Below are positions 7,317 to 49,176 of a DNA stretch of 50,308 nt, piece by piece. Source of the stretch: a virus; IMG/VR virus record IMGVR_UViG_3300010334_002806, positions 1 to 50,308 of that record; one strand, 5' to 3'. The notes under the pieces are model-generated. The model saw only the letters and a list, made by a program, of their open reading frames with translations, had not been told where the DNA came from and ran no database searches. The translations under genes and the position numbers were made by a program. Each line of letters opens with the position of its first letter. The stretch's first letter is position 1.

Positions 7317-7580
7317 ATGAATTTTAAACCATTAGGAAAAAGAGTATTAGTAAAGTTAAATGAAATTAAAAACCAAACAAGTGGAGGTATTTTTATTCCC
7401 GAATCAGCACAATCAAGCGAATTTGCAACGGGTGTGGTGGCATCAGTAGGTAACGAAGTGGTAAACGTAAAAGATGGCGATAGCATTATGTTTGCTTCAT
7501 CGGTTGGGGTAGATATTGAGGTGGATGGTCAAAAATTAAGATTATTGCCTGATGAGGGTTATATCGATGCAATTATTTAA
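7317..7580 (+). CDS. groES: GroES-type co-chaperonin
   Basis: 87 residues with the full GroES pattern: LGKRVLVKLNE at the N-terminus, the mobile loop with GGIFIPESA (residues about 22-30) that docks onto GroEL, ATGVVASVGN, VKDGDSIMFASSVGVDIEVDGQKLRLLPDEGYIDAII. GroES caps GroEL. Phage versions such as T4 gp31 enlarge the chamber or suit it to the major capsid protein. No GroEL gene is in the window, so it must work with the host GroEL. It is followed by a strong terminator and ends the replication block. Confidence 0.9.
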   Translation: MNFKPLGKRVLVKLNEIKNQTSGGIFIPESAQSSEFATGVVASVGNEVVNVKDGDSIMFASSVGVDIEVDGQKLRLLPDEGYIDAII

Positions 7581-8490: not shown

Positions 8491-9342
8491 ATGAAAGCAC
8501 AACCAATTAACAATGTATTTTTAAGTTTAACAAAGCCAATTCAAGACACAATAAAAATGGGAGATATTGAATTATACTTAGATGGTTCTTATAGACCCGA
8601 ATGGAACGCAACAGTAGTAGGTGAAGTGTATAGTTTACCTCAATATCCAAAGGGAGATAATGCAGATGTGGTTTCAAAATTAAAAGAAGGTGATAAGGTA
8701 TTATTTGATTATTCAGTAGTTGCAGAAAGGAAATTTGAATCAGATGGAGATGCGTTCACAGAAACCACAAAAGATAGCCCATACAATCAAAGATTTACAA
8801 ATGGCAAAGGCGAAAAGTTAGTAATAATTGCCTTTCAAGGAAAAATAGCAAAACAATGGGTCGGCACCTATGTTGACAAAAGAGGTAATTTTATAGACGG
8901 AGTGCAAGGCTCTGAACACGATTTAGAAAGATGGAAGTCGCAATTTAATTTTAATTCAACACAATCATTTGTATTTAAAAATTTATTAGATACGGGTAGC
9001 AAAGATGTTTGGAAAGCAGATTATAGAGATATTTTTGCAAAGATTAAAAATGACGAAGTAGTAACAGTTAGCAATAGAATTATATTAGAACCAATAGATA
9101 TGGAAATACCCAAAGATGTAATTAAGCAAATGGGTATAGTAGATACAATAAATGCCAAGGTTAGATTAGGAGATAGGGCCAAGGTTTTATCGGCACCCGA
9201 AGATTCAAATTTAAAAAAAGGAGATGTAGTTGGGTTTGAACCACAATACCTTGAAAAATACGAATATAACAACAAGAATTATTATTTAATAAAATCCTAT
9301 CGAGCATTAGGAGTATGGGAGGGTACAAATTATGGCATATAA
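8491..9342 (+). CDS. GroES-fold-like protein, possibly a double barrel (283 aa)
   Basis: No exact family match, but two segments read like GroES. Residues about 20-85 have DIELYLDGSYRPEW, VVGEVYSLP and LKEGDKVLFDY. Residues about 190-283 have SNRIILEP, DRAKVLSAPEDSNLKKGDVVGFEP and a final YLIKSYRALGVW, like the ending of co-chaperonins. Between them lies a different segment. It could be a phage co-chaperonin that works beside the canonical GroES at 7317, or a virion protein with a similar beta-barrel. It overlaps the next structural gene by 11 bases, so it belongs to the virion block. Confidence 0.45.
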   Translation: MKAQPINNVFLSLTKPIQDTIKMGDIELYLDGSYRPEWNATVVGEVYSLPQYPKGDNADVVSKLKEGDKVLFDYSVVAERKFESDGDAFTETTKDSPYNQRFTNGKGEKLVIIAFQGKIAKQWVGTYVDKRGNFIDGVQGSEHDLERWKSQFNFNSTQSFVFKNLLDTGSKDVWKADYRDIFAKIKNDEVVTVSNRIILEPIDMEIPKDVIKQMGIVDTINAKVRLGDRAKVLSAPEDSNLKKGDVVGFEPQYLEKYEYNNKNYYLIKSYRALGVWEGTNYGI

Positions 9343-23229: not shown

Positions 23230-25275
23230 ATGGGTAAAAAAATAAAAATATACGGAACGGAAATAGAATTGCCCGAACAACCTCCTATTGAAGAAATAGA
23301 AAATTGGGGAGAAAATGATACTAAAAATCAATTTTGGAAAAGATTAGATTTGCCTAATTTTTTTGAATATGTTGAATATGATAAAGAAGAAAATGTATTA
23401 CTTACAAAAGAACAAGAAATATATGCACGAGAGGAAGTAAGAAGGTGTAAGCAAGGGTTTTGGTTTATGAATAATGGTATTCCAACTTATATAACGGGTA
23501 AAAATTATTTTTATTTACAATGGTGGAAATTAGAAGATGATATATATGCAGATTATAGAGATACAGATAGAAGATATTATTTGTATTTAAACCATTGGGA
23601 AAACATGGCGTGGTGTTTGGGTATAATCAGAGGTAAAAAACGTAGAGAAGGAGCAACATCACAAGCAACTTCTAATTTAGTATATGAAGCAATATTTTTT
23701 AAAAATAGTAATTGTGGATTAACAAGCAAAACAGCAGTGGATGCTGGAACTGCATTTACAAATATGGTTTCTTTTGGTTATAGGCAGTTACCCGTTTTTT
23801 TAAAACCAAAACAAATAAATAATAAAGATAGTGTTACCAAATTGGTATTTGCACATAAATCTATAGATATAAAAGATGGAAAAGGAAATGCAATAGATAA
23901 TAATACAGGGCATCGTTCAAGTATTGATTTTCGTGCCCCTAGTCCAAACGTATACGATTCAGGTCGTTTAAGTAGAGGTCTTTTTGATGAAGGTGGTAAA
24001 TGGGAAATAGATTTTTCAAACTTTATATCAAAAGTAAGTAAGACATTAGTAAAAGGTGCTAAAAAAGTAGGTTTTATGGAACTTCCATCAACTTGTAATA
24101 GTATGTCGCAAGGAGGACAAGCGTATTTTGATGAATGGATTAAAACAAAAAAGTTACAAAAAAATAGAACTGCAAATAGATTAGTTTCTTATTTTAGTTC
24201 ATCGTATGATGGGTACGAAGGTTTTATTGATAAATATGGAATGAGTGTTATTAATGAACCAACGGAAGAACAATTTGAATATTTGGTAGAAAAATATGTA
24301 GGAGCAACTGAATTAGATGAAGAAGATATTAAAATGGGGTCAAAACAATATCTTTTAAACAAAAGAAAGGATTTAGAAGGGAAATCATTGGAGGAGGAAA
24401 TTCGTATGAATCCATTTGATGAAAAAGAAATGTTTATGCTTCGAAATTCTAATTGTCATTTTGATGCAGTATTATTAAATGATTTGTATGAGATTGCAAA
24501 AATGAATGAAAAAGAAGTAATAGAATATGGCAATTGGACTTGGAAAGATGGAATACCTTTTACGGAAGCAATATGGGAAACAACTTCAAAAGAATACGCA
24601 AGATGGCATAGAGCAAAGAATTTTAAGATACCTCAAGGAGATACTTATACTAAAAGAGGAAATTTATTTATACCAAAAAATCCCGTTCAGTTTATTATGG
24701 GATGCGATCCGTTTCAAAATTCAATAGTAGAATCAGGAGAAGGGTCAAAAGCAAGTAGTGGAGTATTAAATAGGTATGATATTGGTAATAATGACCCCGT
24801 ATATGATATGATGTTTGTATGTAAATATCACGCAAGGCCAAAAATGGTAGAATTATTTCATAATGATATGGCTTTACAATGTTTTGCTTATGGAGGCCAA
24901 ATGTTAATAGAGGCAAAAATGGATGGTGGATTAAGAAAGTATTTTGAAGATAATTACCTAGCCGCATTTATGATAATGATGCCTGGGAAATCTACTTATG
25001 GTATAGACCCAAATTCAGATAATAAGGCCCTAATGGTAAACCTATGGGAACAATATATTTTAACACATGGAAAAGAAGGTAAAATAATATATCCCGAAGT
25101 AATTGATAGCAAATACGATGGATTGCTTAAATTTGATGTAACCGATACGGAAAAGTCAGATGAAGTTATGGGCTTGGGGTGGACTTTGGTAGCCGATTAT
25201 TACAAAAAAGCCAATTTTAAAAAAATAAATAAAACAAATATTGAAGATTTCTTTAAAATGAAAAAAGTATCATAA
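23230..25275 (+). CDS. terL: Terminase large subunit
   Basis: 681 residues. ATPase: an atypical Walker A GKKRREGATS (residues 135-144) and Walker B GLFDEGGKW (D253, E254). Nuclease (RNase H fold): FIMGCDPF (Asp near 492), MLIEAKMDGG (Glu near 560) and GIDPNSDNKALM (Asp near 592-597). The motor pumps DNA into the prohead through the portal and cuts the concatemer. The KRREG-T form of Walker A recalls terminases of crAss-like phages. The stop shares a base with the next gene start. Oddly, the portal gene is 6 kb away, with a sugar-gene cassette between. Confidence 0.85.
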   Translation: MGKKIKIYGTEIELPEQPPIEEIENWGENDTKNQFWKRLDLPNFFEYVEYDKEENVLLTKEQEIYAREEVRRCKQGFWFMNNGIPTYITGKNYFYLQWWKLEDDIYADYRDTDRRYYLYLNHWENMAWCLGIIRGKKRREGATSQATSNLVYEAIFFKNSNCGLTSKTAVDAGTAFTNMVSFGYRQLPVFLKPKQINNKDSVTKLVFAHKSIDIKDGKGNAIDNNTGHRSSIDFRAPSPNVYDSGRLSRGLFDEGGKWEIDFSNFISKVSKTLVKGAKKVGFMELPSTCNSMSQGGQAYFDEWIKTKKLQKNRTANRLVSYFSSSYDGYEGFIDKYGMSVINEPTEEQFEYLVEKYVGATELDEEDIKMGSKQYLLNKRKDLEGKSLEEEIRMNPFDEKEMFMLRNSNCHFDAVLLNDLYEIAKMNEKEVIEYGNWTWKDGIPFTEAIWETTSKEYARWHRAKNFKIPQGDTYTKRGNLFIPKNPVQFIMGCDPFQNSIVESGEGSKASSGVLNRYDIGNNDPVYDMMFVCKYHARPKMVELFHNDMALQCFAYGGQMLIEAKMDGGLRKYFEDNYLAAFMIMMPGKSTYGIDPNSDNKALMVNLWEQYILTHGKEGKIIYPEVIDSKYDGLLKFDVTDTEKSDEVMGLGWTLVADYYKKANFKKINKTNIEDFFKMKKVS

Positions 25276-25898
25276 TGGAAAATTGGATTAATTTTTTTGA
25301 TAAGATATATGTTATAAACCTAGCCAAAAGAACTGATAGGTTATTGCAAATTGCAGAAGAATTAGAGAGGTATAATATACCATTTGAGTTAGTTACCGCC
25401 ATAGAGCAAGAAGATGGAGCAGAAGGGCTTAAAATGACAATGCAAGGCATATTTAAGAAATCCATTGAAAAAAGGTATGAATCCATATTAGTTTTTGAAG
25501 ATGATGCTTATTTTGTAGAAGGGGTAGAATATACTAACGAAGTGTTAAATAATGCCATGGATCAATTACCCAAATATTGGGATATGCTATTATTAGGGGG
25601 CCAACCGGTAATGGGTTTTACCGGCCAAATATCCCCTAATTTATTATCGTTGGAAGATTGTTATGCCACACATTCAGTAGCTTATAGCATTAATTGCATG
25701 AAAAGAATAATGGCCTTGGGTATGGAATCACCAATAGACAATTGGCTAGTAAAACACATTCAAACACAAAAAAGAACATATATAACATACCCATTATTAG
25801 CAAGCCAAAGGGCAGGAATTAGCGACATAGGTAAGGCATATATAGATTGGAACCCATTTATAATAAACAAATACAACCAAAAATTAAACGAATTATGA
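25275..25898 (+). CDS. GT25-family glycosyltransferase
   Basis: 207 residues. The start IYVINLAKRTDRLLQIAEEL (VINL then R19, D21, R22) and the acidic ILVFEDDAYF (E75, D76, D77) are the signature of the LPS-type GT25 family, which adds galactose or glucose from a nucleotide sugar to a cell-surface or protein glycan. The next segment, WDMLLLGG, also fits. It is the first gene of an eight-gene cassette and starts on the last base of the terminase stop codon. No membrane helix. Donor and acceptor are unknown. Confidence 0.85.
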   Translation: MENWINFFDKIYVINLAKRTDRLLQIAEELERYNIPFELVTAIEQEDGAEGLKMTMQGIFKKSIEKRYESILVFEDDAYFVEGVEYTNEVLNNAMDQLPKYWDMLLLGGQPVMGFTGQISPNLLSLEDCYATHSVAYSINCMKRIMALGMESPIDNWLVKHIQTQKRTYITYPLLASQRAGISDIGKAYIDWNPFIINKYNQKLNEL

Positions 25899-26593
25899 GG
25901 CAATTATCAATTGTAATCCCATCTTGGGAAAGAGTGGATATGACCATAAATAGCTTTAAAAAAGTACACAACGACAAAAGAGTACATTCTATTGTTATAG
26001 TGGATGATGCAAGTTCAATGGCGACTTACAAAGAATTAGAGGCAAAATGTAGCCAATTTTCAAAAGTAAGTTTATATCGAAACCAAAATAACAAAGATTG
26101 CTATGCAAATAAATTATTAGCAGTAAGCTATTCACCAACTGATTTTTGCATATTACTAGATTCTGATAATCAAATAGATAAGTATTATATTGATGCTATT
26201 TTTAATCAAGAAGATTGGGATTGGGAAACCATATTTCAACCTACATTTGCAAGACCAATGTTTGATTTTAGGGCATTTAATGGATTGACAATTAAGAAAT
26301 CCAATGTGGCAAAATATATAGCAAAACCATTGTTTGATACAGCTTTAAATGCCATGAACTACTTTGTTAACAAAAACAAATACATAGAAGTTTGGGATGG
26401 TAATGTTGACCCACATAGTTCAGATTCAATATTTCAAAATTATAATTGGCTAAACGCAGGGTATAAAATAAAATTTTTAGAAGGAATGGAATATGAACAT
26501 TTGGTACATGATGGAAGTCATTATAAAGCAAATTCGCATAAATCACCTGAATTTTATCAAGAAATATTACAAAAATTAGGAGAATTAAGGTAA
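25895..26593 (+). CDS. GT2-like (GT-A fold) glycosyltransferase
   Basis: 232 residues from the ATG at 25895, which overlaps the previous stop (ATGA). The open frame extends upstream to 25847, but that part overlaps the previous gene. Motifs: LSIVIPSWERVDMTINSF, IVIVDDAS (D37, D38) and CILLDSDNQID, the DxD metal-binding loop (D89, D91). It would transfer a sugar from a nucleotide donor. The length is short, so it is probably a soluble, single-domain enzyme. It belongs to the sugar cassette. Confidence 0.75.
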   Translation: MRQLSIVIPSWERVDMTINSFKKVHNDKRVHSIVIVDDASSMATYKELEAKCSQFSKVSLYRNQNNKDCYANKLLAVSYSPTDFCILLDSDNQIDKYYIDAIFNQEDWDWETIFQPTFARPMFDFRAFNGLTIKKSNVAKYIAKPLFDTALNAMNYFVNKNKYIEVWDGNVDPHSSDSIFQNYNWLNAGYKIKFLEGMEYEHLVHDGSHYKANSHKSPEFYQEILQKLGELR

Positions 26594-26630
26594 TTAATTT
26601 AATATTGCATTGGTTATAACACAACTAATT

Positions 26631-27380
26631 ATGCCACATTGTACTTTTATACCTGCGGGGAGGCTTGGGAATTGGTGTTTTGAATGTGCTACTGCGATAG
26701 CATATAGTTTAAAGCATAATTTAGATTTTACTGTTCCAATCGATACGGATAATATAAAATGGAATCCTATATATTGTTTGCATTTGGCAGATTTAAGCTA
26801 TAACCCATATTTAGATAAGGTGGATTTATGGGAAAATAGTCATAGTTATGAAGAATTGCCATTTGATGAATCATGGAGGCATAAAAATATAGTTATACAG
26901 GGTTATAGGCAATCAGAAAAGTATTTCAAAGAGTATAGACAAGAAATATTATACCTATTTAACTTACCTTATAAGTTAACCCCAATATGTAGTATTCACG
27001 CTAGATATGGAGATTATTTAACCATAGAAGGTAAGCATATAGTAATAAACGAAGAATACTTGACCAAGGCAATGGATATGATAAAAATAAAAACAGGACT
27101 TACTAGATTTAAGGTTTTTTCAGATGATATACCATATTTTAAAAAACAATTAGGACACTTATACGATTTTGAATATAGTGGAAATACTGATGAATTAAGC
27201 GACCTAATAGAAATAAGTTGTTGCCATAGTCAGATTAATTCTAGTAGCACTTTTTCTTGGTGGGGAGGATGGTTAAACCAAAATAAAGAAAAGGTTGTAA
27301 TTACCCCCAAAAAATGGTTTCAAGATGGGCATGGTTTAGACACAAAAGATATAGTACCAAACGAATGGATAAAAATATAA
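26631..27380 (+). CDS. GT11-family (alpha-1,2-fucosyltransferase-like) glycosyltransferase
   Basis: 249 residues from the ATG at 26631; the frame is open further from a TTG at 26610, but the protein starts with the family pattern only after the ATG. Visible GT11 motifs: GRLGNWCFECATAIAYSL (residues 10-27, usually GxLGNQMFQYA), HARYGDY (123-129, the donor phosphate-binding HxRRGDY), KVFSDDIPYFK and NSSSTFSWWGGWLN (203-216). GT11 enzymes normally use GDP-L-fucose. Here no GDP-fucose synthase is nearby, but a GDP-mannose 3,5-epimerase is. The Gln to Trp change in GNQMF and the first Arg of RRGD replaced by Ala might affect specificity. Confidence 0.8.
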   Translation: MPHCTFIPAGRLGNWCFECATAIAYSLKHNLDFTVPIDTDNIKWNPIYCLHLADLSYNPYLDKVDLWENSHSYEELPFDESWRHKNIVIQGYRQSEKYFKEYRQEILYLFNLPYKLTPICSIHARYGDYLTIEGKHIVINEEYLTKAMDMIKIKTGLTRFKVFSDDIPYFKKQLGHLYDFEYSGNTDELSDLIEISCCHSQINSSSTFSWWGGWLNQNKEKVVITPKKWFQDGHGLDTKDIVPNEWIKI

Positions 27381-27382
27381 TT

Positions 27383-27988
27383 ATGAGTTACGCATTAGAA
27401 AACATAGATATAGGCGGCAAAATGTTTGATTTTAAAGAATATTATGACATGGTTGCAGAAAGACTGCCTAATAATTGTAAAATAGGCGAAGTGGGTATAG
27501 CTAATGGCAAGTCGGCAATTTATTTGGCAGAAAAAATATTATCATTAGGGAAAAAAATAGATAGATTTGTTTTAATTGATTCAATGCAATATGGCGGTAA
27601 TTATCAAATACAAACAATTATTAATCATTTAATAAAAAGCGGAGTAGGACAACATTGCGAATTGATTATAAAAAATAGCCTTGATGCAAGTTGCGAATTT
27701 CCAAATGATTATTTTGATTATGTTTTTATAGATGCTTCACACGAATACGAATTGACAAAAGCTGATATTAGACTTTGGTATAGAAAAGTAAAAGGAGATG
27801 GCTTTTTAGCAGGTCACGATTATAACGCAGATGAGGTAAATAGAGCAGTTGATGAAGTATTATCAAAAGAAATTGTTTATGTTAATCAAAATTTTTCAAC
27901 TGAAATATTAAAATTAATAGATACTGAAAATGATTTTGGAGTTTGGGAATATACAATAAATTGGCAAACTAAAAAAATAATAAAATAA
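27383..27988 (+). CDS. Class I SAM-dependent methyltransferase (Methyltransf_24-like)
   Basis: 201 residues from the ATG at 27383, two bases after the GT11 stop. The SAM-binding loop is IGEVGIANGKSAIYLAEKI, followed by RFVLIDSMQ (acidic residue at the end of strand 2) and FDYVFIDASHEYELTKADI, then GFLAGHDY. This is the pattern of methyltransferases that methylate sugars or small molecules next to glycosyltransferase genes. The acceptor is unknown; a sugar hydroxyl is likely from context. The last base of its stop overlaps the next start. Confidence 0.75.
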   Translation: MSYALENIDIGGKMFDFKEYYDMVAERLPNNCKIGEVGIANGKSAIYLAEKILSLGKKIDRFVLIDSMQYGGNYQIQTIINHLIKSGVGQHCELIIKNSLDASCEFPNDYFDYVFIDASHEYELTKADIRLWYRKVKGDGFLAGHDYNADEVNRAVDEVLSKEIVYVNQNFSTEILKLIDTENDFGVWEYTINWQTKKIIK

Positions 27989-28950
27989 TGAAAACAGCAT
28001 TAATAACTGGTTCTAGTGGGTTTATAGGTGGTCATTTAACAAAATATTTAAAAAATAAAGGATATTTTGTAATTGGTGCAGATATAGAACAACCTAAATA
28101 TGAAAAACCTACAATATTTTATAATTATGATTTAAGGAATCAATTATTATGTAAATATATATTTCAAAATCACAAAAACATTGATGAAGTATATAATCTT
28201 TCATGCATTATGGGCGGCATGGGGTTTATAGGGAATAAATCCCATAGTTATGATATAATGGTTGGTAGCACTCAAATAGTATCAAATATAATAGAATGTA
28301 GCATAGAGTTTGGAGTTAAAAAATCTTTTTATAGCAGTTCTGCTTGTGTTTATAATATGCGCCTACAAGAAGGTACCGATAATGTATCATTAAGGGAATC
28401 AGACGCCTATCCTGCTATGCCTGATTTAATGTATGGATGGCAGAAATTGCAATCAGAATTGATGTATCAATCAGCTTATGAACAACACAATTTAAACGTA
28501 AGAATTGCTAGATTTCATAATATTTTTGGCGAAGAAGGAATATGGTTTGGCGGGAAAGAAAAATATCCTGCCTCAATTTCAAGAAAAGTGGCAGAAGCAA
28601 AAGATGGAGATGAAATAGAGGTATGGGGTGATGGGAAACAAACAAGAAGTTTTTTACATATTAATACTTGCATTGAGGGTATAATGAAATTAATGGAAAG
28701 TGATTATAATCAACCATTGAATATTGGAAGTGATGAATTAGTAAGTATTGATGAAGTCGCAAATATGGTAATTAAATTATCCGGAAAAAATATTTTAATA
28801 AAACATGATTTAACTAAGCCACAAGGAGTAAGAGGTAGAAATAGTAATAATGAGTTAATTGAAAAAGTTTTAAAATGGAGGCCAAATACAAAATTGATAG
28901 ATGGCTTAACTACTACATATAATTGGATAAACAAACAAGTAAATAAGTAA
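27988..28950 (+). CDS. GDP-mannose 3,5-epimerase
   Basis: 320 residues, an extended short-chain dehydrogenase. The NAD loop is GSSGFIGGH (residues 8-16). The match to plant-type GDP-mannose 3,5-epimerase is detailed: MGGMGFI, SSACVY with C120, YGWQK (Y149, K153), RFHNIFGEEGIWFGGKEKYPAS with K192, WGDGKQTRSFLHI and GVRGRNS with R282. These positions line up with C145, Y174, K178, K217 and R306 of the Arabidopsis enzyme, with almost no gaps. It should convert GDP-D-mannose to GDP-L-galactose (and GDP-L-gulose) with catalytic NAD. A functional sugar donor for the GT11 neighbour is inferred. Confidence 0.9.
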   Translation: MKTALITGSSGFIGGHLTKYLKNKGYFVIGADIEQPKYEKPTIFYNYDLRNQLLCKYIFQNHKNIDEVYNLSCIMGGMGFIGNKSHSYDIMVGSTQIVSNIIECSIEFGVKKSFYSSSACVYNMRLQEGTDNVSLRESDAYPAMPDLMYGWQKLQSELMYQSAYEQHNLNVRIARFHNIFGEEGIWFGGKEKYPASISRKVAEAKDGDEIEVWGDGKQTRSFLHINTCIEGIMKLMESDYNQPLNIGSDELVSIDEVANMVIKLSGKNILIKHDLTKPQGVRGRNSNNELIEKVLKWRPNTKLIDGLTTTYNWINKQVNK

Positions 28951-28954
28951 TAAT

Positions 28955-29590
28955 ATGATGATACCATTTGACTACTTGGTCGATAAATATAAAATAGATA
29001 TAAAAGGAGTCGCACACTTTGGCGCAAGCTATGCGCAAGAAAGATTTGAATATGATAAATATTGTAAAGGTAAAGTTATATGGGTTGAGGCTATTCCTAA
29101 TGTGTATAATGAACTTGTAGAAAACTTAAAATCATTCACAAATCAAAAAGGCATTAACGCTTGTTTAAGCAATGTAGATGGTCAAGAAATAATTTTTAAT
29201 GTTTCAAATAATGAAAGTCAAAGTTCATCAATGTTAGAATTAGGTACACATTCTATAATTCATCCCGAAGTGCATTATGTTGAAAAATTATCAATGATAA
29301 CAAATAGAGCAGATACATTATTTACTAAAGAAGATTTTAAAGATATAAATTTTCTTAATGTAGATTTACAAGGAGCAGAACACTTAGCCATAGAAGGAAT
29401 GGGTGATTTGATTAAAAATATTGAATGGGCTTTATTAGAAGTAAACAAAAAAGAAGTTTACAAAGGTTGTATGACAATAGATAATATGGATTATTTTATG
29501 TTACAAAGGGGATTTGAAAGAGTAGAAACAGGAGTTTTGGTAGCTGATTCATGGACTGATGCACTTTATAAAAGAACTTTTAAAGTATGA
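28955..29590 (+). CDS. FkbM-family methyltransferase
   Basis: 211 residues. Typical FkbM signs: VAHFGASYAQERFEYDKYCKGKVIWVEAIP (SAM loop and strand-2 acidic residue), VSNNESQSSSML, then FLNVDLQGAEHLAIEGMG and WALLEVN. FkbM enzymes O-methylate sugars and other natural products. It starts at either of two consecutive ATG codons (28955 or 28958). The stop overlaps the next gene (ATGA). It is the second methyltransferase of the cassette, so two different positions of the glycan may be methylated. Confidence 0.85.
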   Translation: MMIPFDYLVDKYKIDIKGVAHFGASYAQERFEYDKYCKGKVIWVEAIPNVYNELVENLKSFTNQKGINACLSNVDGQEIIFNVSNNESQSSSMLELGTHSIIHPEVHYVEKLSMITNRADTLFTKEDFKDINFLNVDLQGAEHLAIEGMGDLIKNIEWALLEVNKKEVYKGCMTIDNMDYFMLQRGFERVETGVLVADSWTDALYKRTFKV

Positions 29591-30408
29591 TAAAAGTACC
29601 CCATGAATTTACCCCTACAATAAATACCATATACCCACATGGTAATTTAATTATTTTTGAAGATTGGTTTTCTTATAACGATATACCCAATACAAATAGA
29701 CAATACCTACCAATCCAATGGACTGCATATCATGTAAATAATAATTACGGGAATGATATAGTAGCAATTAAAAGATTACAAGATTATGTAGATTTATTAC
29801 CAAGAAATTTTAAATATTTTACCATTGTTCAATATGATGATGGTTGTTTAATAGACTTTAAGGATTTAGATATACTTATTTTTAGCATGAGTAAAAAAAT
29901 AGGAGTGGAAATACCACTTCTTTGTATGCCACATAAATTTGAATTTAATGGCGAAAAAGAAATTTACGCATCATTTATAGGTACACATACTCACCCAATA
30001 AGAGAACATATATTTAATATAAAAGACAATAACTATTATATTTCAGACAATCCTCATAATGAAAAAGATTTTTGTAATATATTGGCTTCTTCGTTATTTG
30101 GTTTATGTCCCAGGGGATATGGTTTAAATAGCTTTAGAATAGCTGAATGTATGCAATATGGCACTATACCCGTTTATATATCAGATGAATTTATAGGAGT
30201 TTTTGATGCAAATTTTGAGAAATATGGGGTACTTGTAAAAGAAAAAGATGCACATAGAATTACTGAAATTTTATATTCAATCCCATTAGAAATTGTATAT
30301 GAAAAACAAAAAAAAATAAAAGAATACTACGATAAATATTATACTTATGCAGGGGCCTTTAATCAAATAATAACACACTTACAAAATGAATATAGTAGTA
30401 ATACATGA
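29587..30408 (+). CDS. Exostosin-like (GT47-type) glycosyltransferase
   Basis: 273 residues. Residues about 165-195 carry the exostosin signature: SSLFGLCPRGYGLNSFRIAE followed by CMQYGTIPVYISDEF, the GT-B donor site of GT47-type enzymes. The N-terminal half is a divergent acceptor domain. No membrane anchor, unlike eukaryotic exostosins. It overlaps its upstream neighbour by 4 bases and its downstream neighbour by 23 bases. Confidence 0.8.
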   Translation: MIKVPHEFTPTINTIYPHGNLIIFEDWFSYNDIPNTNRQYLPIQWTAYHVNNNYGNDIVAIKRLQDYVDLLPRNFKYFTIVQYDDGCLIDFKDLDILIFSMSKKIGVEIPLLCMPHKFEFNGEKEIYASFIGTHTHPIREHIFNIKDNNYYISDNPHNEKDFCNILASSLFGLCPRGYGLNSFRIAECMQYGTIPVYISDEFIGVFDANFEKYGVLVKEKDAHRITEILYSIPLEIVYEKQKKIKEYYDKYYTYAGAFNQIITHLQNEYSSNT

Positions 30409-30931
30409 TTTTAGTGCCAACGATAGATTTGATAGGTTAATGAAGGAATTTACTGAACAAGGTATAAGATACTACACAATATTACCCGCAATACATAGTC
30501 AAGAATCAGCTTTAAAAGGAATTAATTTAGCTCACAAACAATGCGTTCAATATGCCATAAATAATGGCTTAAAAGAAATATGCATAATGGAAGATGATGT
30601 TAAATTTACAAGCCCAAATAGTTTTAAACATTTTTTGGAAACAAAACCAAGCGATTTTGATTTATATTTAGGTGGAGTTTATTTAGGTGAAATACTACCA
30701 AATAATTTAATTAAATCTTTTGCAGGGTTACATTGCTATATTATTAAAGAGCAATTTTACAATACATTTTTAAACGTACCGGATAATGAACATATAGATA
30801 GAGCATTATCAAATCTAGGTACATTCTATGTTTCATACCCATTTACTTCAATTCAATATAATGGGTATTCTTACAACACTAAACAAGTAATGAATTACGA
30901 TAGTTTACTTGATAATAAATTGCTTTATTAA
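30386..30931 (+). CDS. GT25-like glycosyltransferase (second, shorter)
   Basis: 181 residues. It keeps the acidic strand IMEDDVKF (E69, D70, D71) with the following FDLYLGGVYLGEI, as in the GT25 enzyme at 25275. The N-terminus (NIVVIHDFSANDRFDRLMKEF) is a diverged version of the VINL--R-DR segment. It is the last gene of the cassette, and a 13-bp inverted repeat follows. The first and last genes of the cassette therefore belong to the same broad family. Confidence 0.65.
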   Translation: MNIVVIHDFSANDRFDRLMKEFTEQGIRYYTILPAIHSQESALKGINLAHKQCVQYAINNGLKEICIMEDDVKFTSPNSFKHFLETKPSDFDLYLGGVYLGEILPNNLIKSFAGLHCYIIKEQFYNTFLNVPDNEHIDRALSNLGTFYVSYPFTSIQYNGYSYNTKQVMNYDSLLDNKLLY

Positions 30932-31001: not shown

Positions 31002-31544
31002 ATGTCCGAAATTTGGAAAGATATAGAAGGGTATGAGGGATGTTATCAAATTAGTAATTATGGTAATTTTAAATCTTTAAAAAGAGAATATTTTACCAAT
31101 GGCGCAAGAAGATTTACTGAAGAAAAAATATTAAAAGATAGACTTAGTACAGATGGGTATTTAAGAGCAAGTTTATCATTAAATGGTAAAATAAAAAATA
31201 CAACAATTCATAGATTGGTAGCTAAGACATTTATTCCAAATTTAGAAAATAAGCCAGAAGTTAATCATATTGATGGTAATAAAAAAAACAATAATTTTAA
31301 TAATTTAGAATGGGTTAATCGAAGCGAGCAGATGATACATGCAATGAAAAATAATTTAAACAACATTAGGAAAAATGTAGAAGGATTGCCAAACCCAAGC
31401 AATAAACTTGTTATTGATTACAATACAGGTATTTTTTATGAATCAGCAAAACAAGCATCAATTGCAAAAGGAATAAAATATTCCACATTAAAAGGAATGT
31501 TGACTAATAGAAATTCAAATAGAAGTGGGGTATTCTATATATAA
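31002..31544 (+). CDS. HNH homing endonuclease with NUMOD4 domain
   Basis: 180 residues. Residues 3-45 are a NUMOD4 DNA-binding module (EIWKDIEGYEGCYQISNYGNFKSL). Residues about 68-108 are the HNH nuclease: HRLVAKTFIPN, VNHIDGNKKNNNFNNLEWV (H89, N96, N101). The C-terminus (residues about 144-170, SAKQASIAKGIKYSTLKGML) is a NUMOD1-like helix-turn-helix. Such enzymes spread by cutting cognate DNA lacking them. It is free-standing: neither neighbour gene is split and no intron or intein is visible. It sits between the sugar cassette and portal. Confidence 0.88.
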   Translation: MSEIWKDIEGYEGCYQISNYGNFKSLKREYFTNGARRFTEEKILKDRLSTDGYLRASLSLNGKIKNTTIHRLVAKTFIPNLENKPEVNHIDGNKKNNNFNNLEWVNRSEQMIHAMKNNLNNIRKNVEGLPNPSNKLVIDYNTGIFYESAKQASIAKGIKYSTLKGMLTNRNSNRSGVFYI

Positions 31545-31557
31545 ATTAATATTTTAA

Positions 31558-33888
31558 ATGCAACAAGCAACTAATACCTACCCATCTCATCAAATTGACC
31601 CTAAATCTAAGGGTTACGATTTTATCTTGCAATATGTGAAAGCCGCTTTTGCAGATTCAAGGGGTTTCGTACCAAATAATATGTTGAATTTTGGTCAATC
31701 CAAAATGAATGAGATTAGACAATACGCATTAGGCAGACAATCAACAACAAAATATAAAGAAAAATTAGGAGCAGATGAACAAACCAATAAAAGTTGGTTA
31801 AATGTTGATTGGACACCACCTTCATTCATTACAAAATTTAGAGAAATTGCTATTTCGAAATTAGTTCAAAGAAGATATGATATTAATGTTTATGCAGTTG
31901 ACCCATTAGCCAAAAGTGATGAAGATGAATACTTTAATAAAATGAAGGTTAAAATATTGATGAAAGAGGCGGCACAAAAAGCAGGAGCAGAAGATATAGC
32001 AAATAGTCCAATGTTACAACCTGCACCAAATGAAGCTGCCGATATGGAACAATTATCAATGGAGCAGCAATTTGGCTATAAACATATTATGGCAATGGAA
32101 GCTGAAATGGCAGTTGCATTGGCTTTTCAAAATAATAAATTTGATGAATTAAGAAAAAGAACAATAGAGCACTTATTTGATTTTGGAATTGGTGGATATA
32201 CTGAATATATTGATGAAAATGGACAAGTAAAAGTAAGAGAAGTAGATCCTGAAAATATGGTATTATCTTATTGCTCTAAAAATGATTTTTCAGACTTAGT
32301 GCATTGGGGAGAGGTAAGAGAAGTATATGTTGGAGATTTAGCACCATATTTTACACCCGAACAAATGGATAAGATTGTAACATCAGTTGCAGGTAGATTT
32401 GGCAATCCATCAAACTTTATGTATGGAACCGATTATTCTAAATATTGGAATAGATTTAAGGTATTAGTATTAGATTTTGAATTTTTATCTTGGAATGATT
32501 ATACTTATAAATCAGAGGTGGATAATAGAGGTAATGAAAGATTTGGCAAAACAAAATATAAGAATGAATTAAAGTCTAATGATAATGCCAAAATGGGTAC
32601 AATCCCCAATATGGTAGATGATGAAAATAGAGGAGAAGCACAACCCGTTTATATGCCAGTAACTAAAAAAGTAGTATATAAATGCAAATGGCTAATACAA
32701 ACCGATTATATGTATGATTGGGGTATTTCAGAAAACCAAATTAGAAAACAAGCAAGTTGGTGGGACACTAAATTAAATATTCAATTATACTCTTGGAATT
32801 TTTATAAAATGAGATTTGCGGGTATTACTGAAAGATTAATACCATTAGAAGACCAAGCGTGTTTACATTGGTTTAGGTTACAAGATATGTCTAATAAACT
32901 AATACCTTATCTTATTACCTTGGATTTGAATGCAATAGATGGTATTGATTTTGGTGGTGGTGGAGATAAGTTAAAACGAGAAAAAGTGCTAGATTTTATC
33001 TTTTCTAATTTTGTTGTACCATATAGAAGCGATGATAAATTAACGCAAAACCCAAATTACAAACCCGTTTCTATTGAGGCATCGGGCCAATTGGTAATTT
33101 TTGGACAACTATATGACCAATTAAATAGAACACTTGATTTAATGAGGCAAATATCGGGTTTAAATGAACTTACCGATGGTTCAACACCAAATGCAAAAAC
33201 ATTGGTACCCGTTGCAAATGCAGCTATGGAAAGCACTAATAATGCTTTGTATTTAATGTCTTTTGCAGATAAGCAATTAATACAAAATACCGCAGATGCT
33301 ATTGTATCAAAAACACAAATAGCAGTAAAATTAGGAAAAGTGGAAGGATATGCAAAATCATTGGGTATGGAAAGTATTAAATTTTTACAAATTAACCCTA
33401 ATATATCAATGCACGAATTTGGTATATTTATTGAAGATGCACCACAAGACTTTGAAAGACAACAATTATTACAAGAATTAAATTTAAGAGATAGCCAAGG
33501 TTTAATAGAACCAGAAGATAAAATATTAGTCATGAGTTGTAGAAATCTTAAAATGGCTTCTATGGTTTTAGCTTATAGAATTAAAAAAAGAAAAGAAAAG
33601 GCCCAAGAATTTGAAATGCAAAAGATTCAGCAAAATAATCAAGGCAATCAGCAAACAGTTCAAATTAGCGAAGATGAAAAAAGAAAAACATTACAAGTAC
33701 AATTAGAAGCAGATATTCAAAGAATAAATGCAGAAAAACAATGGGATTATATTATTGCAATGGGTAAAAAAGAAAAAGATGTAGAAGAAGCTAATATTCA
33801 AAGCCAAGCTAAAATTATAGCACAGCAAATATCAGCAGATTCTAAAATACAAATACATAATCAAAAAATGAGCAAAAATGAAAGTTAA
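31558..33888 (+). CDS. Portal protein
   Basis: 776 residues. The middle part (residues about 455-560) has the sequence order of portals of crAss-like phages: IDFGGGGDKLKREKVLDFIFSN, FGQLYDQLNRTLDLMRQISGLNELTDGSTPNAKTL (the stem and crown helices), then a long helical C-terminus rich in Gln, Lys and Glu (residues about 690-776, the barrel). It is followed by the scaffold and capsid genes. The dodecameric portal is the DNA entry ring and nucleates capsid assembly. The N-terminal 60 residues are a helical clip-like region. Its end overlaps the ferritin-like gene by 11 bases. Confidence 0.7.
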   Translation: MQQATNTYPSHQIDPKSKGYDFILQYVKAAFADSRGFVPNNMLNFGQSKMNEIRQYALGRQSTTKYKEKLGADEQTNKSWLNVDWTPPSFITKFREIAISKLVQRRYDINVYAVDPLAKSDEDEYFNKMKVKILMKEAAQKAGAEDIANSPMLQPAPNEAADMEQLSMEQQFGYKHIMAMEAEMAVALAFQNNKFDELRKRTIEHLFDFGIGGYTEYIDENGQVKVREVDPENMVLSYCSKNDFSDLVHWGEVREVYVGDLAPYFTPEQMDKIVTSVAGRFGNPSNFMYGTDYSKYWNRFKVLVLDFEFLSWNDYTYKSEVDNRGNERFGKTKYKNELKSNDNAKMGTIPNMVDDENRGEAQPVYMPVTKKVVYKCKWLIQTDYMYDWGISENQIRKQASWWDTKLNIQLYSWNFYKMRFAGITERLIPLEDQACLHWFRLQDMSNKLIPYLITLDLNAIDGIDFGGGGDKLKREKVLDFIFSNFVVPYRSDDKLTQNPNYKPVSIEASGQLVIFGQLYDQLNRTLDLMRQISGLNELTDGSTPNAKTLVPVANAAMESTNNALYLMSFADKQLIQNTADAIVSKTQIAVKLGKVEGYAKSLGMESIKFLQINPNISMHEFGIFIEDAPQDFERQQLLQELNLRDSQGLIEPEDKILVMSCRNLKMASMVLAYRIKKRKEKAQEFEMQKIQQNNQGNQQTVQISEDEKRKTLQVQLEADIQRINAEKQWDYIIAMGKKEKDVEEANIQSQAKIIAQQISADSKIQIHNQKMSKNES

Positions 33889-34375
33889 ATCATTACTTAG
33901 TAATAGTATGAAAAGTTGGTTTCAAAAGTCAATGTCAAGCGAATTGTACGCATCAAACTTATATAAACATATTGCTAATCAACTTCAAAAAATAGGATTT
34001 TTCGGAGGTCAAGAATATTATTTAAAAGAAAGTGCAGATGAATTAACCCATTATCAAATATTGGTTGACATAGTAAATGATTTTGGTGATGTAATTGATG
34101 TTCCAAGGGTAGATTCAATGAATGAAGATATAAATGGATTAGATGATGCTTTATATATTGCATACGAAACTGAAATGGATTTATTAAATCAATATAAAGA
34201 ATTTTATAAAATGGCAGAAGATGAAGATTGTGCATTATCTCAATCACTACTTCAATTTTTAGAAATACAAAGAAAGTCGGTAGGTGAATATGGAGATTTA
34301 ATTAGTAGATACAATTTATGTGGTTCAAACGAAGCAGCTATTTTAGACTTTGATAAATATATTGGAAAAAAATAA
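33878..34375 (+). CDS. Ferritin-like diiron protein
   Basis: 165 residues with four long helices. The diiron ligands line up with bacterial ferritin: E22 in SSELYASNLY, E55 and H58 in DELTHYQ, E97 in AYETEMDLL, and Q131 in the LEIQRKSVGEY segment, where ferritins have VEEQ. Ferritins oxidise Fe(II) and store iron in a 24-subunit shell. Here the gene overlaps portal and precedes the scaffold, so the product may be packaged, or may protect DNA from oxidation. It lacks a signal peptide. The extra C-terminal 20 residues (SNEAAILDFDKYIGKK) are not ferritin-like. Confidence 0.75.
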   Translation: MKVKSLLSNSMKSWFQKSMSSELYASNLYKHIANQLQKIGFFGGQEYYLKESADELTHYQILVDIVNDFGDVIDVPRVDSMNEDINGLDDALYIAYETEMDLLNQYKEFYKMAEDEDCALSQSLLQFLEIQRKSVGEYGDLISRYNLCGSNEAAILDFDKYIGKK

Positions 34376-36924: not shown

Positions 36925-36943
36925 TTTTAGATAAAAATATGGG

Positions 36944-36970
36944 AAGGGGTGGTTTTTTGCCACCCTTTTC
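36944..36970 (+). terminator. Rho-independent terminator after the major capsid gene
   Basis: Stem AAGGGGTGG (36944-36952) with CCACCCTTT (36960-36968), loop TTTTTTG, then a T-rich tail. It ends the portal-to-capsid transcript. Confidence 0.85.
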
Positions 36971-36971
36971 T

Positions 36972-43940: not shown

Positions 43941-46103
43941 ATGTCCGATAAAACAGTTAATTTAGGATATTTGCCAGATTTAATTACCTATGATTCCAAT
44001 AATAATATTATCCTAGGTCAATCAGTAACAGGTGGTGGTAAACTTCAAGTGGGTGGTGATGTAAGTATCACAGGAAGCTATAAAGTTAATGGTGTTGCTT
44101 TTACTGGCATCCAAGGCACTCAAGGCATCCAAGGCACTCAAGGCATCCAAGGTATTACAGGTGGTTCGGGTATTCAAGGATTAGTTGGTACTCAAGGAAA
44201 CCAAGGCATTCAAGGTACTCAAGGCATCCAAGGCACTCAAGGCATTCAAGGCAACCAAGGTGCCACCGGAACGGGATTACAAGGTGCACAAGGATTACAA
44301 GGTGCACAAGGTATAAAAGCAGATAACTACTTAACAACATCTACCACTTCATTATTAATAGGTACAGGTTCTAAGTCATTAACCATTGGGACGGGGTTGG
44401 CTTATTCAATTGGTCAAAGCATAATAATAGCAAATAGTTCCTCTAATACTATGTCGGGCATTGTAGATACTTATAATTCATCTACGGGTGCTATGACTGC
44501 AACTATATCATCTATTACGGGTTCAGGTACTTTTGCATCTTGGTCGGTAAATTTGCAAGGGGCTGCGGCAGGTGCTCAAGGTAGCCAAGGTTCTCAAGGA
44601 ACTGCTGCTCAAAATGGTACTCAAGGAGCACAAGGTATTTCAGGCACAAATGCTCAATCAGTTCAAGGTGCTCAAGGAGCACAAGGATATAATGGATTAG
44701 GTTATGATGGGTTAACATCAACTTCATCAATGACATTGCAAACGGGAAGTATAACTTTTACCGTAAATAAAACTACTTTAACAGGTGCTTATGTAGTAGG
44801 CCAAAGAGTTAGAATAACTTATCCTACTAATACTTTATATTGGATGGAAGGCTCAATTACAGCCTATTCTGGAACTACCTCAATGACTGTTTTAATTGAT
44901 TTGGTAAATATATCAGGCAATACTTATAATACTTGGAATATAGGCATTACGGGTTCTATGGGACAACAAGGCTTACAAGGTACTCAAGGAGCACAAGGCC
45001 AAAGTATTACGGGTGGACAAGGATCACAAGGCCCTACTGGGAGTGTAGGTCAAGCTACACAAGGAGCACAAGGAAGTATAGGGGTGCAAGGTAGTTTGGG
45101 TGTTATTGGAACTGGATATAATGGATTGTCATCTACCACAAGTTTATTATTATCAACGGGTGCTATTAGTTTCACCACAAATTTATCTTCTTCAAATTCA
45201 GCGTTTAGCGTTGGTCAAAGAGTAAGATTATCATATACCACAAATCCCACTTTGTATTGGATGGAAGGTGTTATAACATCTTTTTCAAGTACTACAATGG
45301 GTGTTACTATTGATTTAGTTAATGTATCAGGTAATACTTATGCAAGTTGGAATATTAATACTGCGGGTCAAACAGGAGCAATAGGCTTACAAGGAACACA
45401 AGGAGCACAGGGCCCACAAGCATCAACAGGAGCACAAGGAGCACAAGGCCCTAGCGGTGGAGTAGGGCAGTCAATACAAGGCTCTCAAGGCTCAACAGGT
45501 TCAGTAGGCCCACAAGGTGCTTTAGGGACTAATGGATCAAATGGATCAAATGGTTCTCAAGGCTCTCAAGGCTTTGCAGGTGCGACAGGTGCTCAAGGTG
45601 CGACAGGTTCAACCGGAGGAAGTGGTCAAGGTGTTCAAGGTTATACAGGTTCAACCGGAGGGTCTGGAACACAAGGGGCACAAGGGTATATTGGTGTTCA
45701 AGGTTATACAGGTTCAACAGGAAGTGGCTTTACTTCTATATCACCTGCATATAATACCGCAATTGTAATAAGTAATGGTTCTGGAAGTTCAGCTTATACA
45801 AATTCATCTATTTATGTAAGTGGTAATACAATTTATGCAGATGCTTTTTACCAAAATTCATCAAGGAGTTTAAAAACCAATATTTCTGATTTTAATGAAA
45901 ATGCAGTTGATTTATTGAAAAAAGTAAAAATAGTTACATTCTATTATAATAATGATTTAGAAACACCGCATATTGGTTTTATTGCAGAAGATACACCACA
46001 AGAGTTTAGTGGTATAAAGCAAAATTCAATGGATGTACCATCAGTAGTTGGTACATTAGTAAAGGCAGTTCAAGAGTTATCGGATAAAATAAATAGCAAA
46101 TGA
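43941..46103 (+). CDS. Collagen-like tail fibre with S74 intramolecular chaperone (720 aa)
   Basis: Gly-X-Gln triplets (GIQGTQGIQG) form collagen-like stalks at residues about 57-125, 210-250, 340-386 and 475-595. Three similar beta domains of about 85 residues separate them; two of these share YWMEG, TIDLVN/LIDLVN and SGNTY. The C-terminal 80 residues are a peptidase S74 (endosialidase chaperone) domain: SRSLKTNISDFNENAVDLLKKV, then HIGFIAEDTP. S74 domains trimerise the fibre and cut themselves off before the conserved Ser. This should be a trimeric receptor-binding fibre. Confidence 0.8.
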   Translation: MSDKTVNLGYLPDLITYDSNNNIILGQSVTGGGKLQVGGDVSITGSYKVNGVAFTGIQGTQGIQGTQGIQGITGGSGIQGLVGTQGNQGIQGTQGIQGTQGIQGNQGATGTGLQGAQGLQGAQGIKADNYLTTSTTSLLIGTGSKSLTIGTGLAYSIGQSIIIANSSSNTMSGIVDTYNSSTGAMTATISSITGSGTFASWSVNLQGAAAGAQGSQGSQGTAAQNGTQGAQGISGTNAQSVQGAQGAQGYNGLGYDGLTSTSSMTLQTGSITFTVNKTTLTGAYVVGQRVRITYPTNTLYWMEGSITAYSGTTSMTVLIDLVNISGNTYNTWNIGITGSMGQQGLQGTQGAQGQSITGGQGSQGPTGSVGQATQGAQGSIGVQGSLGVIGTGYNGLSSTTSLLLSTGAISFTTNLSSSNSAFSVGQRVRLSYTTNPTLYWMEGVITSFSSTTMGVTIDLVNVSGNTYASWNINTAGQTGAIGLQGTQGAQGPQASTGAQGAQGPSGGVGQSIQGSQGSTGSVGPQGALGTNGSNGSNGSQGSQGFAGATGAQGATGSTGGSGQGVQGYTGSTGGSGTQGAQGYIGVQGYTGSTGSGFTSISPAYNTAIVISNGSGSSAYTNSSIYVSGNTIYADAFYQNSSRSLKTNISDFNENAVDLLKKVKIVTFYYNNDLETPHIGFIAEDTPQEFSGIKQNSMDVPSVVGTLVKAVQELSDKINSK
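44106..44150 (+). repeat. 18-bp tandem repeat coding for Gly-X-Gln triplets
   Basis: GGCATCCAAGGCACTCAA is present two and a half times head to tail. Related, less exact units continue to about 44255. They encode collagen-like triplets and are likely to vary in number. Confidence 0.8.
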
Positions 46104-47051: not shown

Positions 47052-47564
47052 ATGTTAGCAATCAACAATTATAATAGTGTTGAAGAATTTAAATACAAGC
47101 TTGATTTTAGGCTAGAATATTTAGTTGTAAAAAATTTTTCATTTTTTACCAAACTAAATATTTTCTTCAATATCTATTTAATTAATAGAAATATTAATTC
47201 AATTTTAGAAATTATAATTACACAACTTTATATTACTAAGGGGCTGAAATTAGAAATTGAATTACATAAATCTGATTTATTAAATTGCAATTTGAGTTCC
47301 CAAATACTGCACATTAATAATTTAATAAAAAAACAAATTACAATTAATAGTAAGATTGAAAAAATTGCAGAAAAGTCATCTAGATTTCCTATAAAAAAAA
47401 TAGATAATCTTGTAGAAGCAAGTGAAGAAACTTTGTCATTTCTATATGAAATACAAAGGCTATTGAAAAAAATGAACTTGAAACCTAATATGCAAGTACA
47501 ATCTGACTTAGCAAAGTCTTCAGTTTTACGATCTCAGAAAACATTACAAGTAGTTTATGGCTAA
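47052..47564 (+). CDS. Hypothetical helical protein, candidate antitoxin (170 aa)
   Basis: Mostly helical with many Ile, Asn and Lys; residues about 35-70 are hydrophobic but not clearly a membrane helix. No known DNA-binding motif is visible. Its last 8 bases overlap the start of a PemK/MazF-like toxin gene, the usual antitoxin-first layout, and it has its own -7 element. Antitoxin status is an inference from this layout; it is longer than most MazE-type antitoxins. Confidence 0.5.
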   Translation: MLAINNYNSVEEFKYKLDFRLEYLVVKNFSFFTKLNIFFNIYLINRNINSILEIIITQLYITKGLKLEIELHKSDLLNCNLSSQILHINNLIKKQITINSKIEKIAEKSSRFPIKKIDNLVEASEETLSFLYEIQRLLKKMNLKPNMQVQSDLAKSSVLRSQKTLQVVYG

Positions 47565-47931
47565 TTCAATCTTTGAACAGAGAGATGTTTATCTATTGCC
47601 ACACCCTATAAATAGTTCAGAAGGAGAGCATCCATTTATAGTGCTATCTATAAAATCAGCAAATGATCATGAAGATACATTTATTGCAGTAATGATTACA
47701 TCTTCTAAAAGGTACCATGATGATTACTCATTAGATTTATGGGATGATATGTTTGTAAATCCATTGAATAAAAAAAATAGCCACGTAAGAATGCATTTAT
47801 TTAATTTATGTTTACCTAAGGAAGTTGTGGGTAAGCGTCTTAATAAAATGAAATCTAAATATTTTAACCAATTAATGAAAAGTATTGGAGAACTTGTTTT
47901 TAATTTTGATTTTTCTCCTATTATTGATTAA
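47557..47931 (+). CDS. PemK/MazF-like toxin (endoribonuclease candidate)
   Basis: 124 residues. The PemK/MazF beta-barrel pattern is visible: FEQRDVYLLPHP (strand 1), EHPFIVLSIK (usually RPvvVls), FIAVMITSS (the iTS segment), HVRMHLFNLCLPKEVVGKRLNKM and a final helix LMKSIGELV. Such toxins cut mRNA or rRNA. The usual Arg of the RP motif is replaced by His (EHPF), so activity is not certain. It overlaps the candidate antitoxin gene by 8 bases. Confidence 0.65.
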   Translation: MANSIFEQRDVYLLPHPINSSEGEHPFIVLSIKSANDHEDTFIAVMITSSKRYHDDYSLDLWDDMFVNPLNKKNSHVRMHLFNLCLPKEVVGKRLNKMKSKYFNQLMKSIGELVFNFDFSPIID

Positions 47932-48576: not shown

Positions 48577-49176
48577 ATGTCAAATACAAGGATAGCAATT
48601 TTAATTGATGGAGGTTTTTTCTTACAAAGGTATAAACAAAATAATAGTGGCAATAGTCCTCGTATTAGCGATATGAAACCTTTTATTGATGATATAGTAA
48701 ACAAAGTAGATTCGGTTGATCCAAAAACAACTACAAATATTTTATTAAGGACTTATTATTATGATTGTAGACCATTTGGGGATATAAAAAAAGACCCCAA
48801 TGGTAATGATATAGATTTTAGTAAAAAACCGCAATTTCATGCTGCAACAAAATTTCAAAATGACCTCAAAAGTTTTCCTCAATTAGCACTTAGACTAGGA
48901 GATTTGTCTTTTGATGGATGGAAAATTGATAAAAATGATTCTTCAAAATTTCATCCTGATTTGAAACAAAAAGCAGTTGATATGAAAATTGGATTAGATA
49001 TAGCATGGATGTCAAGCAAAAGAACTATTGATAAAATTGTATTAGTTGCTGGAGATAGCGACTTTATTGCACCAATGAAATTTGCAAGACGAGAGGGGAT
49101 ATTAGTTTATTTAGACACAATGAATCAAAAAAAAATAAAACAATCTCTTATTGAACATGCAGATTTTATAATATAA
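48577..49176 (+). CDS. NYN-domain (LabA/DUF88-like, PIN-fold) protein
   Basis: 199 residues. NYN proteins are metal-dependent RNase-like domains of the PIN superfamily. The signature acidic residues are visible: ILIDGGF (Asp 11), KAVDMKIGLDIAWMS (Asp 135 and 141 region) and LVAGDSDFIAPMKFARREG, the classic strand-4 motif with Asp. The family includes the LabA/DUF88 proteins. It is monocistronic, has a strong terminator and sits in a cassette framed by 230-bp direct repeats. Target and role are unknown; a defence or toxin role is possible. Confidence 0.88.
   Translation: MSNTRIAILIDGGFFLQRYKQNNSGNSPRISDMKPFIDDIVNKVDSVDPKTTTNILLRTYYYDCRPFGDIKKDPNGNDIDFSKKPQFHAATKFQNDLKSFPQLALRLGDLSFDGWKIDKNDSSKFHPDLKQKAVDMKIGLDIAWMSSKRTIDKIVLVAGDSDFIAPMKFARREGILVYLDTMNQKKIKQSLIEHADFII

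Follow-up and report, generated by a model that had tools for sequence, protein, structure and literature searches.

An eight-gene glycosyltransferase and methyltransferase cassette between the terminase and portal genes of an IMG/VR virus, with a possible role in virion glycosylation

Background

Mycobacteriophages modify capsid and tail-tube subunits with glycosyltransferases of their own, and the accounts that describe this work name Che8 gp110, Corndog gp38 and Myrna as cases (Freeman et al. 2023, as cited in PMC12619734 and PMC12363180). Chlorovirus PBCV-1 glycosylates its capsid in the cytoplasm, where it relies on enzymes and a GDP-sugar pathway that it encodes itself (PMC7019647). Mimivirus has one putative (R655) and one demonstrated (R699) collagen glycosyltransferase (PMC9546862), and cyanophage S-SCSM1 combines a GDP-mannose 3,5-epimerase (GME) with fucosyltransferases, interpreted as modifying the cell wall (PMC9602691). 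Here we analyze a 50,308-base IMG/VR virus record (IMGVR_UViG_3300010334_002806; "the window" denotes this whole stretch) in which eight consecutive genes for sugar-modifying enzymes, A to H, lie between the genes for the large terminase (TerL) and the portal protein. We favor, with modest confidence, the reading that the products of this cassette form a complete route of their own in the cytoplasm, by which a short O-methylated heteroglycan is assembled directly on a virion protein of the same late block.

The mycobacteriophage systems resemble this locus in belonging to tailed phages and in using phage-encoded glycosyltransferases. Unlike them, the cassette occurs in an unrelated phage, comprises eight genes including one for a GME, is fixed between TerL and portal, and is known from its genes alone. 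PBCV-1 also has several soluble virus-encoded glycosyltransferases and a GDP-sugar enzyme, and gene A resembles its capsid glycosyltransferase structures 2p73/2p6w. However, PBCV-1 is a large-genome eukaryotic virus that makes GDP-fucose and GDP-rhamnose rather than GDP-L-galactose, and its acceptor and glycan are proven. The mimivirus enzymes are likewise virus-encoded, and R655 is the nearest solved structure to gene H, but their acceptor is collagen, whereas collagen genes are not tied to the cassette here. Cyanophage clusters (S-SCSM1, S-CAM9 and Bellamy) place a GME gene near or next to genes for GT11-type fucosyltransferases, with start/stop overlap; in S-CAM9 and Bellamy the pair lies near ribonucleotide-reductase and tRNA genes, not near packaging or portal genes. 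Such multigene clusters mean that an initial annotation of the window went too far in stating that sugar genes in phages usually occur singly and at the edges. The GtrABC serotype-conversion cassettes are phage glycosyltransferase operons as well. GtrABC conversion needs membrane GtrA/GtrC-type proteins and lysogeny, whereas neither GtrA or membrane proteins nor an integrase was found here.

Results and discussion

The cassette and its enzymes

Open reading frame (ORF) calls place the cassette at 25275-30931 on the + strand. Gene families were assigned from Pfam, PHROGs and NCBIfam scans (match values in brackets), and the starts of some genes were refined afterwards.

25275-25898, + strand: gene A, GT25 glycosyltransferase, first in the cassette (PF01755, 6.5e-11)
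25895-26593, + strand: gene B, GT2 glycosyltransferase (PF00535, 4.1e-12)
26631-27380, + strand: gene C, GT11 glycosyltransferase, alpha-1,2-L-fucosyltransferase-like, ATG start (PF01531, 1.9e-20; phrog_2644, 1.4e-31)
27383-27988, + strand: gene D, methyltransferase of the Methyltransf_24 family, 27422 a possible start (PF13578, 9.1e-15)
27988-28950, + strand: gene E, predicted GDP-mannose 3,5-epimerase (epimerase family match, 4e-33; phmmer against PDB)
28955-29590, + strand: gene F, FkbM-type methyltransferase (PF05050, 1.3e-14; TIGR01444, 1.6e-11, above cut-off)
29587-30408, + strand: gene G, exostosin-like GT47 glycosyltransferase (PF03016, 4.4e-12; PDB exostosin-2, 1.8e-5)
30386-30931, + strand: gene H, short GT25-like glycosyltransferase, last in the cassette (PF01755, 2.3e-5)

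The initial annotation had proposed an eight-gene sugar cassette at this position with four or five glycosyltransferases, an epimerase, two methyltransferases and almost no gaps. The ORF calls and family scans bear out the cassette and settle its content at five glycosyltransferases, all of which reach or exceed the Pfam cut-offs, one sugar-nucleotide epimerase and two methyltransferases. Its tight packing is also confirmed. TerL and gene A share 1 bp, where the stop codon of the former runs into the start of the latter, and the spacing inside the cassette varies between a 23-bp overlap and a 37-bp gap (A/B overlap 4, B/C gap 37, C/D gap 2, D/E overlap 1, E/F gap 4, F/G overlap 4 and G/H overlap 23 bp). 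One feature missing from its heading is an HNH gene (31002-31544) between the cassette and the portal gene.

Gene E is predicted to be a GDP-mannose 3,5-epimerase making GDP-L-galactose or GDP-L-gulose. Its best PDB match by phmmer is plant GME (2c59, 6e-81, versus 3e-21 for GDP-L-fucose synthase), and its motifs SSACVY, YGxxK and GGKEK, which hold the catalytic Cys, the Tyr/Lys pair and a second Lys, align with SSACIY, YGxxK and GGREK of GME. A divergent gene E allele (contig L008; L numbers are our labels for contigs and loci) again has GME as its top match (1e-74). Gene C scores 73.7 bits against the Glyco_transf_11 model, whose cut-off is 23.9. GT11 is the family of the alpha-1,2-L-fucosyltransferases, and since L-galactose is 6-hydroxy-L-fucose, gene C would be a natural user of the gene E product; GDP-L-galactose is from this known chemistry a plausible donor. 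The GME gene overlaps the following GT11 gene in cyanophages S-CAM9 and Bellamy, an adjacency that supports the pairing of gene E with gene C.

Structure models indicate that genes A and H both have the GT25 fold. The AlphaFold2 (AF2) model of gene A (predicted local distance difference test, pLDDT, 92.6) has human collagen galactosyltransferase COLGALT1 as its top Foldseek match (6e-13) and also matches the PBCV-1 capsid glycosyltransferase structures 2p73/2p6w (3-4e-5). For the gene H model (pLDDT 93.5), mimivirus R655 is nearest (1.5e-9), followed by a bacterial GT25 galactosyltransferase and COLGALT1. An EDD motif is invariant in 14 gene A sequences and in 21 gene H sequences. Family membership makes the products of genes D and F putative O-methyltransferases. 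Searches of solved structures with genes B, C, D and F returned nothing useful.

Conservation between TerL and portal

Portal-guided IMG/VR scans yielded 37 related contigs that hold TerL together with a portal 46-80% identical to that of the window; some are near-copies, so they do not represent 37 independent events. A multigene cassette lies between TerL and portal in 35 of them, and in 17 the gene order is exactly A-B-C-D-E-F-G-H. Other cassettes carry additional genes, for GIY-YIG-like, HNH or PD-(D/E)XK endonucleases or for further FkbM methyltransferases, and in some a fused FkbM and Methyltransf_24 protein replaces gene D. The initial annotation had suggested comparing synteny in cassette-free relatives, and such relatives exist. 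The site is empty in L057 (TerL-portal distance 19 bp), gene H is the sole cassette gene kept in L034, and a further 29 relatives at greater distance (portal 24-27% identical) have TerL abutting portal and no cassette. These 29 include the named phages Panino, ctfjg026 and elemo, portal relatives in which the cassette was sought and TerL touches portal. Relatives of genes G and H are almost lacking in a set of 50,697 phage records. On the portal tree, two changes are needed within the cassette group, which is compatible with a single origin; the tree does not separate gain and later loss from stepwise gain, and it leaves the order in which L032, L034 and L057 branch ambiguous.

Several variations accompany this conservation. 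In L026, L032, L034, L057 and L059, TerL is 24-32% identical to that of the window and portal 46-61%; by sequence comparison, two TerL lineages appear to alternate on one backbone, and the cassette adjoins either type. A UDP-glucose/GDP-mannose dehydrogenase gene lies inside the cassette of L054 (963-2093), which suggests that some clade members may make a uronic acid. At least three endonuclease types (HNH/NUMOD4, GIY-YIG-like and PD-(D/E)XK) occur at differing junctions in or beside the cassette (the HNH gene of the window, L002, L026 and L059). It is possible that these genes drive gene exchange in the cassette.

Similar cassettes in other phages

Homologues of gene H in other phages again terminate glycosyltransferase/methyltransferase cassettes. 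Among the loci with enough flanking sequence in one group of unrelated phages (L140-L149), the cassette reads GT2-GT2-FkbM-H, with extra genes in L148; that of L140 immediately precedes the genes for the small and large terminase, which are of a different type (GP3_package, Terminase_3). The cassette lies upstream of connector and tail genes of the window's type in L132, L133, L136 and L139, and beside such genes in L131, where four GT2-like genes and a methyltransferase gene come after gene H. L135 keeps A-B-C and F-G-H in unchanged order at a different site. The presence of similar cassettes by packaging genes in unrelated phages favors an action on the virion.

Chromosomal homologues of gene H in Bacteroidota/Chitinophagales have a different neighborhood. 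At eight of nine loci they lie about 10-100 bp from PDC-M21A/B (L157, L158, L160, L161, L166, L167, L168 and L171; L159/L165 is the exception), a PADLOC candidate anti-phage pair consisting of an AbiEii-like nucleotidyltransferase and its partner. In a sample of 398 genomes, M21B occurs in 42 and a strong gene H match in seven, six of which adjoin M21. A glycosyltransferase would be an unexpected optional partner of a defence candidate.

Selection and allele exchange

The cassette genes are under purifying selection, as the capsid genes are. Median dN/dS (ratio of nonsynonymous to synonymous substitution rates) is 0.04 for A, 0.09 for B, 0.12 for C, 0.11 for D, 0.20 for E, 0.05 for F, 0.07 for G and 0.06 for H; the corresponding values for portal, major capsid protein (MCP) and scaffold are 0.05, 0.08 and 0.20. 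Comparison within the clade indicates that the inner cassette genes have been exchanged among relatives, because genes D and E of the window are nearest to those of distant relatives (L026, 79-80%, with gene D at 80%; L053, 74%) and because E and F follow portal identity far less (rank correlations 0.62 and 0.37) than G and H do (0.92 and 0.90).

Where the glycan may go

Hydrophobicity does not exceed 1.47 anywhere in the cassette ORFs of the relatives (Kyte-Doolittle mean over 19 residues), and all cassette products are predicted to be soluble, with no membrane-spanning segment. The phosphoglycosyl transferase family Bac_transf (PF02397), the flippase family Polysacc_synt (PF01943) and GtrA (PF04138) were absent from 15 related genomes in searches whose controls were positive, and neither tyrosine (PF00589) nor serine (PF00239) integrases were found in 15 related genomes. 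The thymidylate-synthase/hydroxymethylase family (PF00303) matched in 0 of 16 related genomes, and TET/JBP (PF12851) in 0 of 15, in a search with a silent control. Soluble enzymes unaccompanied by lipid-linked initiator or export machinery, integrase or hydroxymethylase make a virion protein glycosylated in the cytoplasm more likely than a modified surface or modified DNA. We rejected serotype conversion of the GtrABC type given the absence of GtrA and integrases in 15 genomes.

Remodeling of the host surface is the alternative that deserves most attention, although we consider it unlikely. The enzymes would extend or methylate a host lipid-linked glycan (lipopolysaccharide, LPS; capsule; or the Bacteroidota general O-glycan) late in infection, the host would export the product, and re-adsorption of progeny would be blocked. 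It counts for this idea that bacterial surface-glycan loci commonly encode GT25, GT11 and FkbM enzymes and that Bacteroidota O-glycans can carry O-methylation. Cyanophage relatives of E and C were, moreover, interpreted by their authors as modifying the cell wall or LPS (PMC9602691). However, the cassette and the 15 genomes lack any membrane protein of this kind, be it an initiator, a flippase or GtrA, the lack of integrases leaves no lysogen to profit, and genes placed within the packaging/head block and used late in the lytic cycle would have little time for a surface change. An intracellular host target or small molecule, modified to counter defence or to take over the host, in which case the late position of the genes would be incidental, seems improbable. 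The chromosomal gene H homologues beside PDC-M21A/B (8/9 loci) hint at a role in phage-host conflict, but five glycosyltransferases, two methyltransferases and a donor-making enzyme resemble glycan assembly rather than modification of a single target, and the co-location with head genes recurs across several phage groups.

The window also encodes a collagen-repeat tail protein with GTQ triplets (43941-46103; PF01391, 2e-25), which could be glycosylated in place of head proteins, as BclA and mimivirus collagens are. The collagen-glycosyltransferase-like folds modeled for A and H would suit such an acceptor. We nevertheless judge it quite improbable. Collagen matches occur in 8 of 16 records and are missing, with fragments possible, from the cassette-bearing L026 (72 kb), L032 (62 kb), L052, L053 and L059; PF01391 is thus not tied to cassette presence, and we rejected the protein as a general acceptor. 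No prolyl or lysyl hydroxylase was noticed, and no dedicated search was made. It is most improbable of all that the enzymes glycosylate and methylate modified bases of the phage genome. Phage glycosyltransferases can decorate DNA, according to a study described in PMC12619734 (Pyle et al. 2024), and gene H has a weak match to a beta-glucosyl-HMC-alpha-glucosyltransferase PHROG (0.019); against this stand the lack of the hydroxymethylase family in the 16 genomes, on which we rejected DNA glycosylation, and the negative TET/JBP search in 15, whose control was silent.

Proposed pathway

In the favored reading, glycosylation of a virion protein, gene E would convert host GDP-D-mannose to GDP-L-galactose and gene C would transfer the L-sugar so supplied. 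Genes A and H (GT25), B (GT2) and G (GT47) would form the protein linkage and the remaining bonds, and genes D and F would methylate hydroxyls, so that the chain is capped or diversified. GT25 is the enzyme family and fold of the protein-acceptor collagen galactosyltransferases. The modeled proximity of gene A to collagen hydroxylysine galactosyltransferase and of gene H to mimivirus R655 hints at a protein acceptor, which would be a protein of the head or connector region, and the glycan could be branched or linear. It would shield or tune the particle with respect to host-surface depolymerases, receptor mismatch, proteases, grazers or adsorption to debris. Since D, E and F alleles are swapped among relatives while the outer genes G and H stay with the head genes, glycan structure would be expected to vary by strain.

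Several points weigh against this reading. The acceptor protein and its glycosylation site are hypothetical, as is an initiator role for any cassette enzyme. Genes A and H also resemble bacterial GT25 beta-1,4-galactosyltransferases. A host lipid-linked glycan, exported by host flippases, would be an equally feasible substrate for soluble glycosyltransferases, and the cassette may lie close to the head genes because insertion is tolerated there. Late, coordinated expression of the cassette is presumed from gene position alone. The clade contigs are all uncultured and possibly fragments, and the absences hold for the families that were searched rather than absolutely. The assignment to virion glycosylation is by functional resemblance to the described systems and is correspondingly provisional, the cassette being known here from its genes. 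The short, complete methylated glycan of the initial annotation, placed there on the virion or the host surface, is therefore retained in part. A coherent, conserved gene set under purifying selection in the packaging/head module agrees with it, whereas "complete" overstates a pathway whose initiator enzyme and acceptor are hypothetical. As to the site, the soluble enzymes, the lack of export machinery and integrase, and the similar cassettes elsewhere favor the virion and make the host surface less likely.

Genomic surroundings

The late genes of the window run on the + strand in the order connector and tail genes, large internal proteins, TerL, cassette, portal, ferritin-like protein, scaffold-like protein and MCP. 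The MCP was assigned by position and conservation and has no PHROG match. The features adjoining the cassette or ending the block are as follows.

23230-25275, + strand: large terminase (TerL), 5' neighbor of the cassette (phrog_6681, 2.6e-68)
31002-31544, + strand: HNH (NUMOD4) homing endonuclease, a rider between gene H and portal (PF07463, 1.2e-16; PF13392, 2.4e-10)
31558-33888, + strand: portal protein, 3' neighbor (phrog_6547, 5.9e-63)
36941-36971, + strand: strong terminator-like hairpin 3' of the MCP gene (13-pair stem)

The hairpin is likely to mark the end of the transcription unit; the interval from TerL to MCP was scanned and contains no + strand terminator comparable to it. A promoter scan was uninformative (85 found versus 94 expected by chance). 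The HNH gene is variably present at this junction in relatives and is absent from 17 otherwise identical cassettes. Recent foreign acquisition, judged by base composition, was rejected: cassette G+C is 0.26-0.32, near that of the rest of the window. The host is probably a Bacteroidota-type bacterium, to judge from distant named relatives (Flavobacterium, Cellulophaga, Maribacter and Tenacibaculum) and from Bacteroidota metagenome-assembled genomes that hold gene H homologues.

Other genes of the window were also noted. The ferritin-like protein gene (33878-34375; PF00210, 8e-14) between portal and scaffold is kept in the near clade and was not found in L026, L032, L034 and L052-L059. A GroES-like co-chaperonin is encoded at 7317-7580, and another gene, whose product matches Cpn10 weakly, adjoins the connector genes (8491-9342). 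Two neighboring ORFs at 318-1226 consist of repeats of a peptide with the pattern YDENGNxLTYKNSNG. The right end encodes a MazF-like growth inhibitor (47557-47931; phrog_1936) and an NYN-domain protein (48577-49176).

Conclusions

A broader proposal is tentative, and we hold it with considerable doubt. The cassette might represent a dedicated, transferable virion-glycosylation island of Bacteroidota phages, closed by an H-type gene, that has docked in several tailed-phage lineages unrelated to one another, beside either the terminase/portal genes or the connector genes. A methylated glycan containing L-galactose would then be made on the assembling head or portal, sugar-nucleotide and methyltransferase alleles would be swapped to vary the particle surface, and the system would be a prokaryotic counterpart of chlorovirus capsid glycosylation. 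Phage virion glycosylation is documented in very few systems, chiefly mycobacteriophages. The compact soluble enzymes, including the predicted GDP-L-galactose route, could be usable for glycoengineering. A conserved eight-gene pathway with natural empty-site and single-gene relatives would make the benefit of a sugar-coated phage directly testable.

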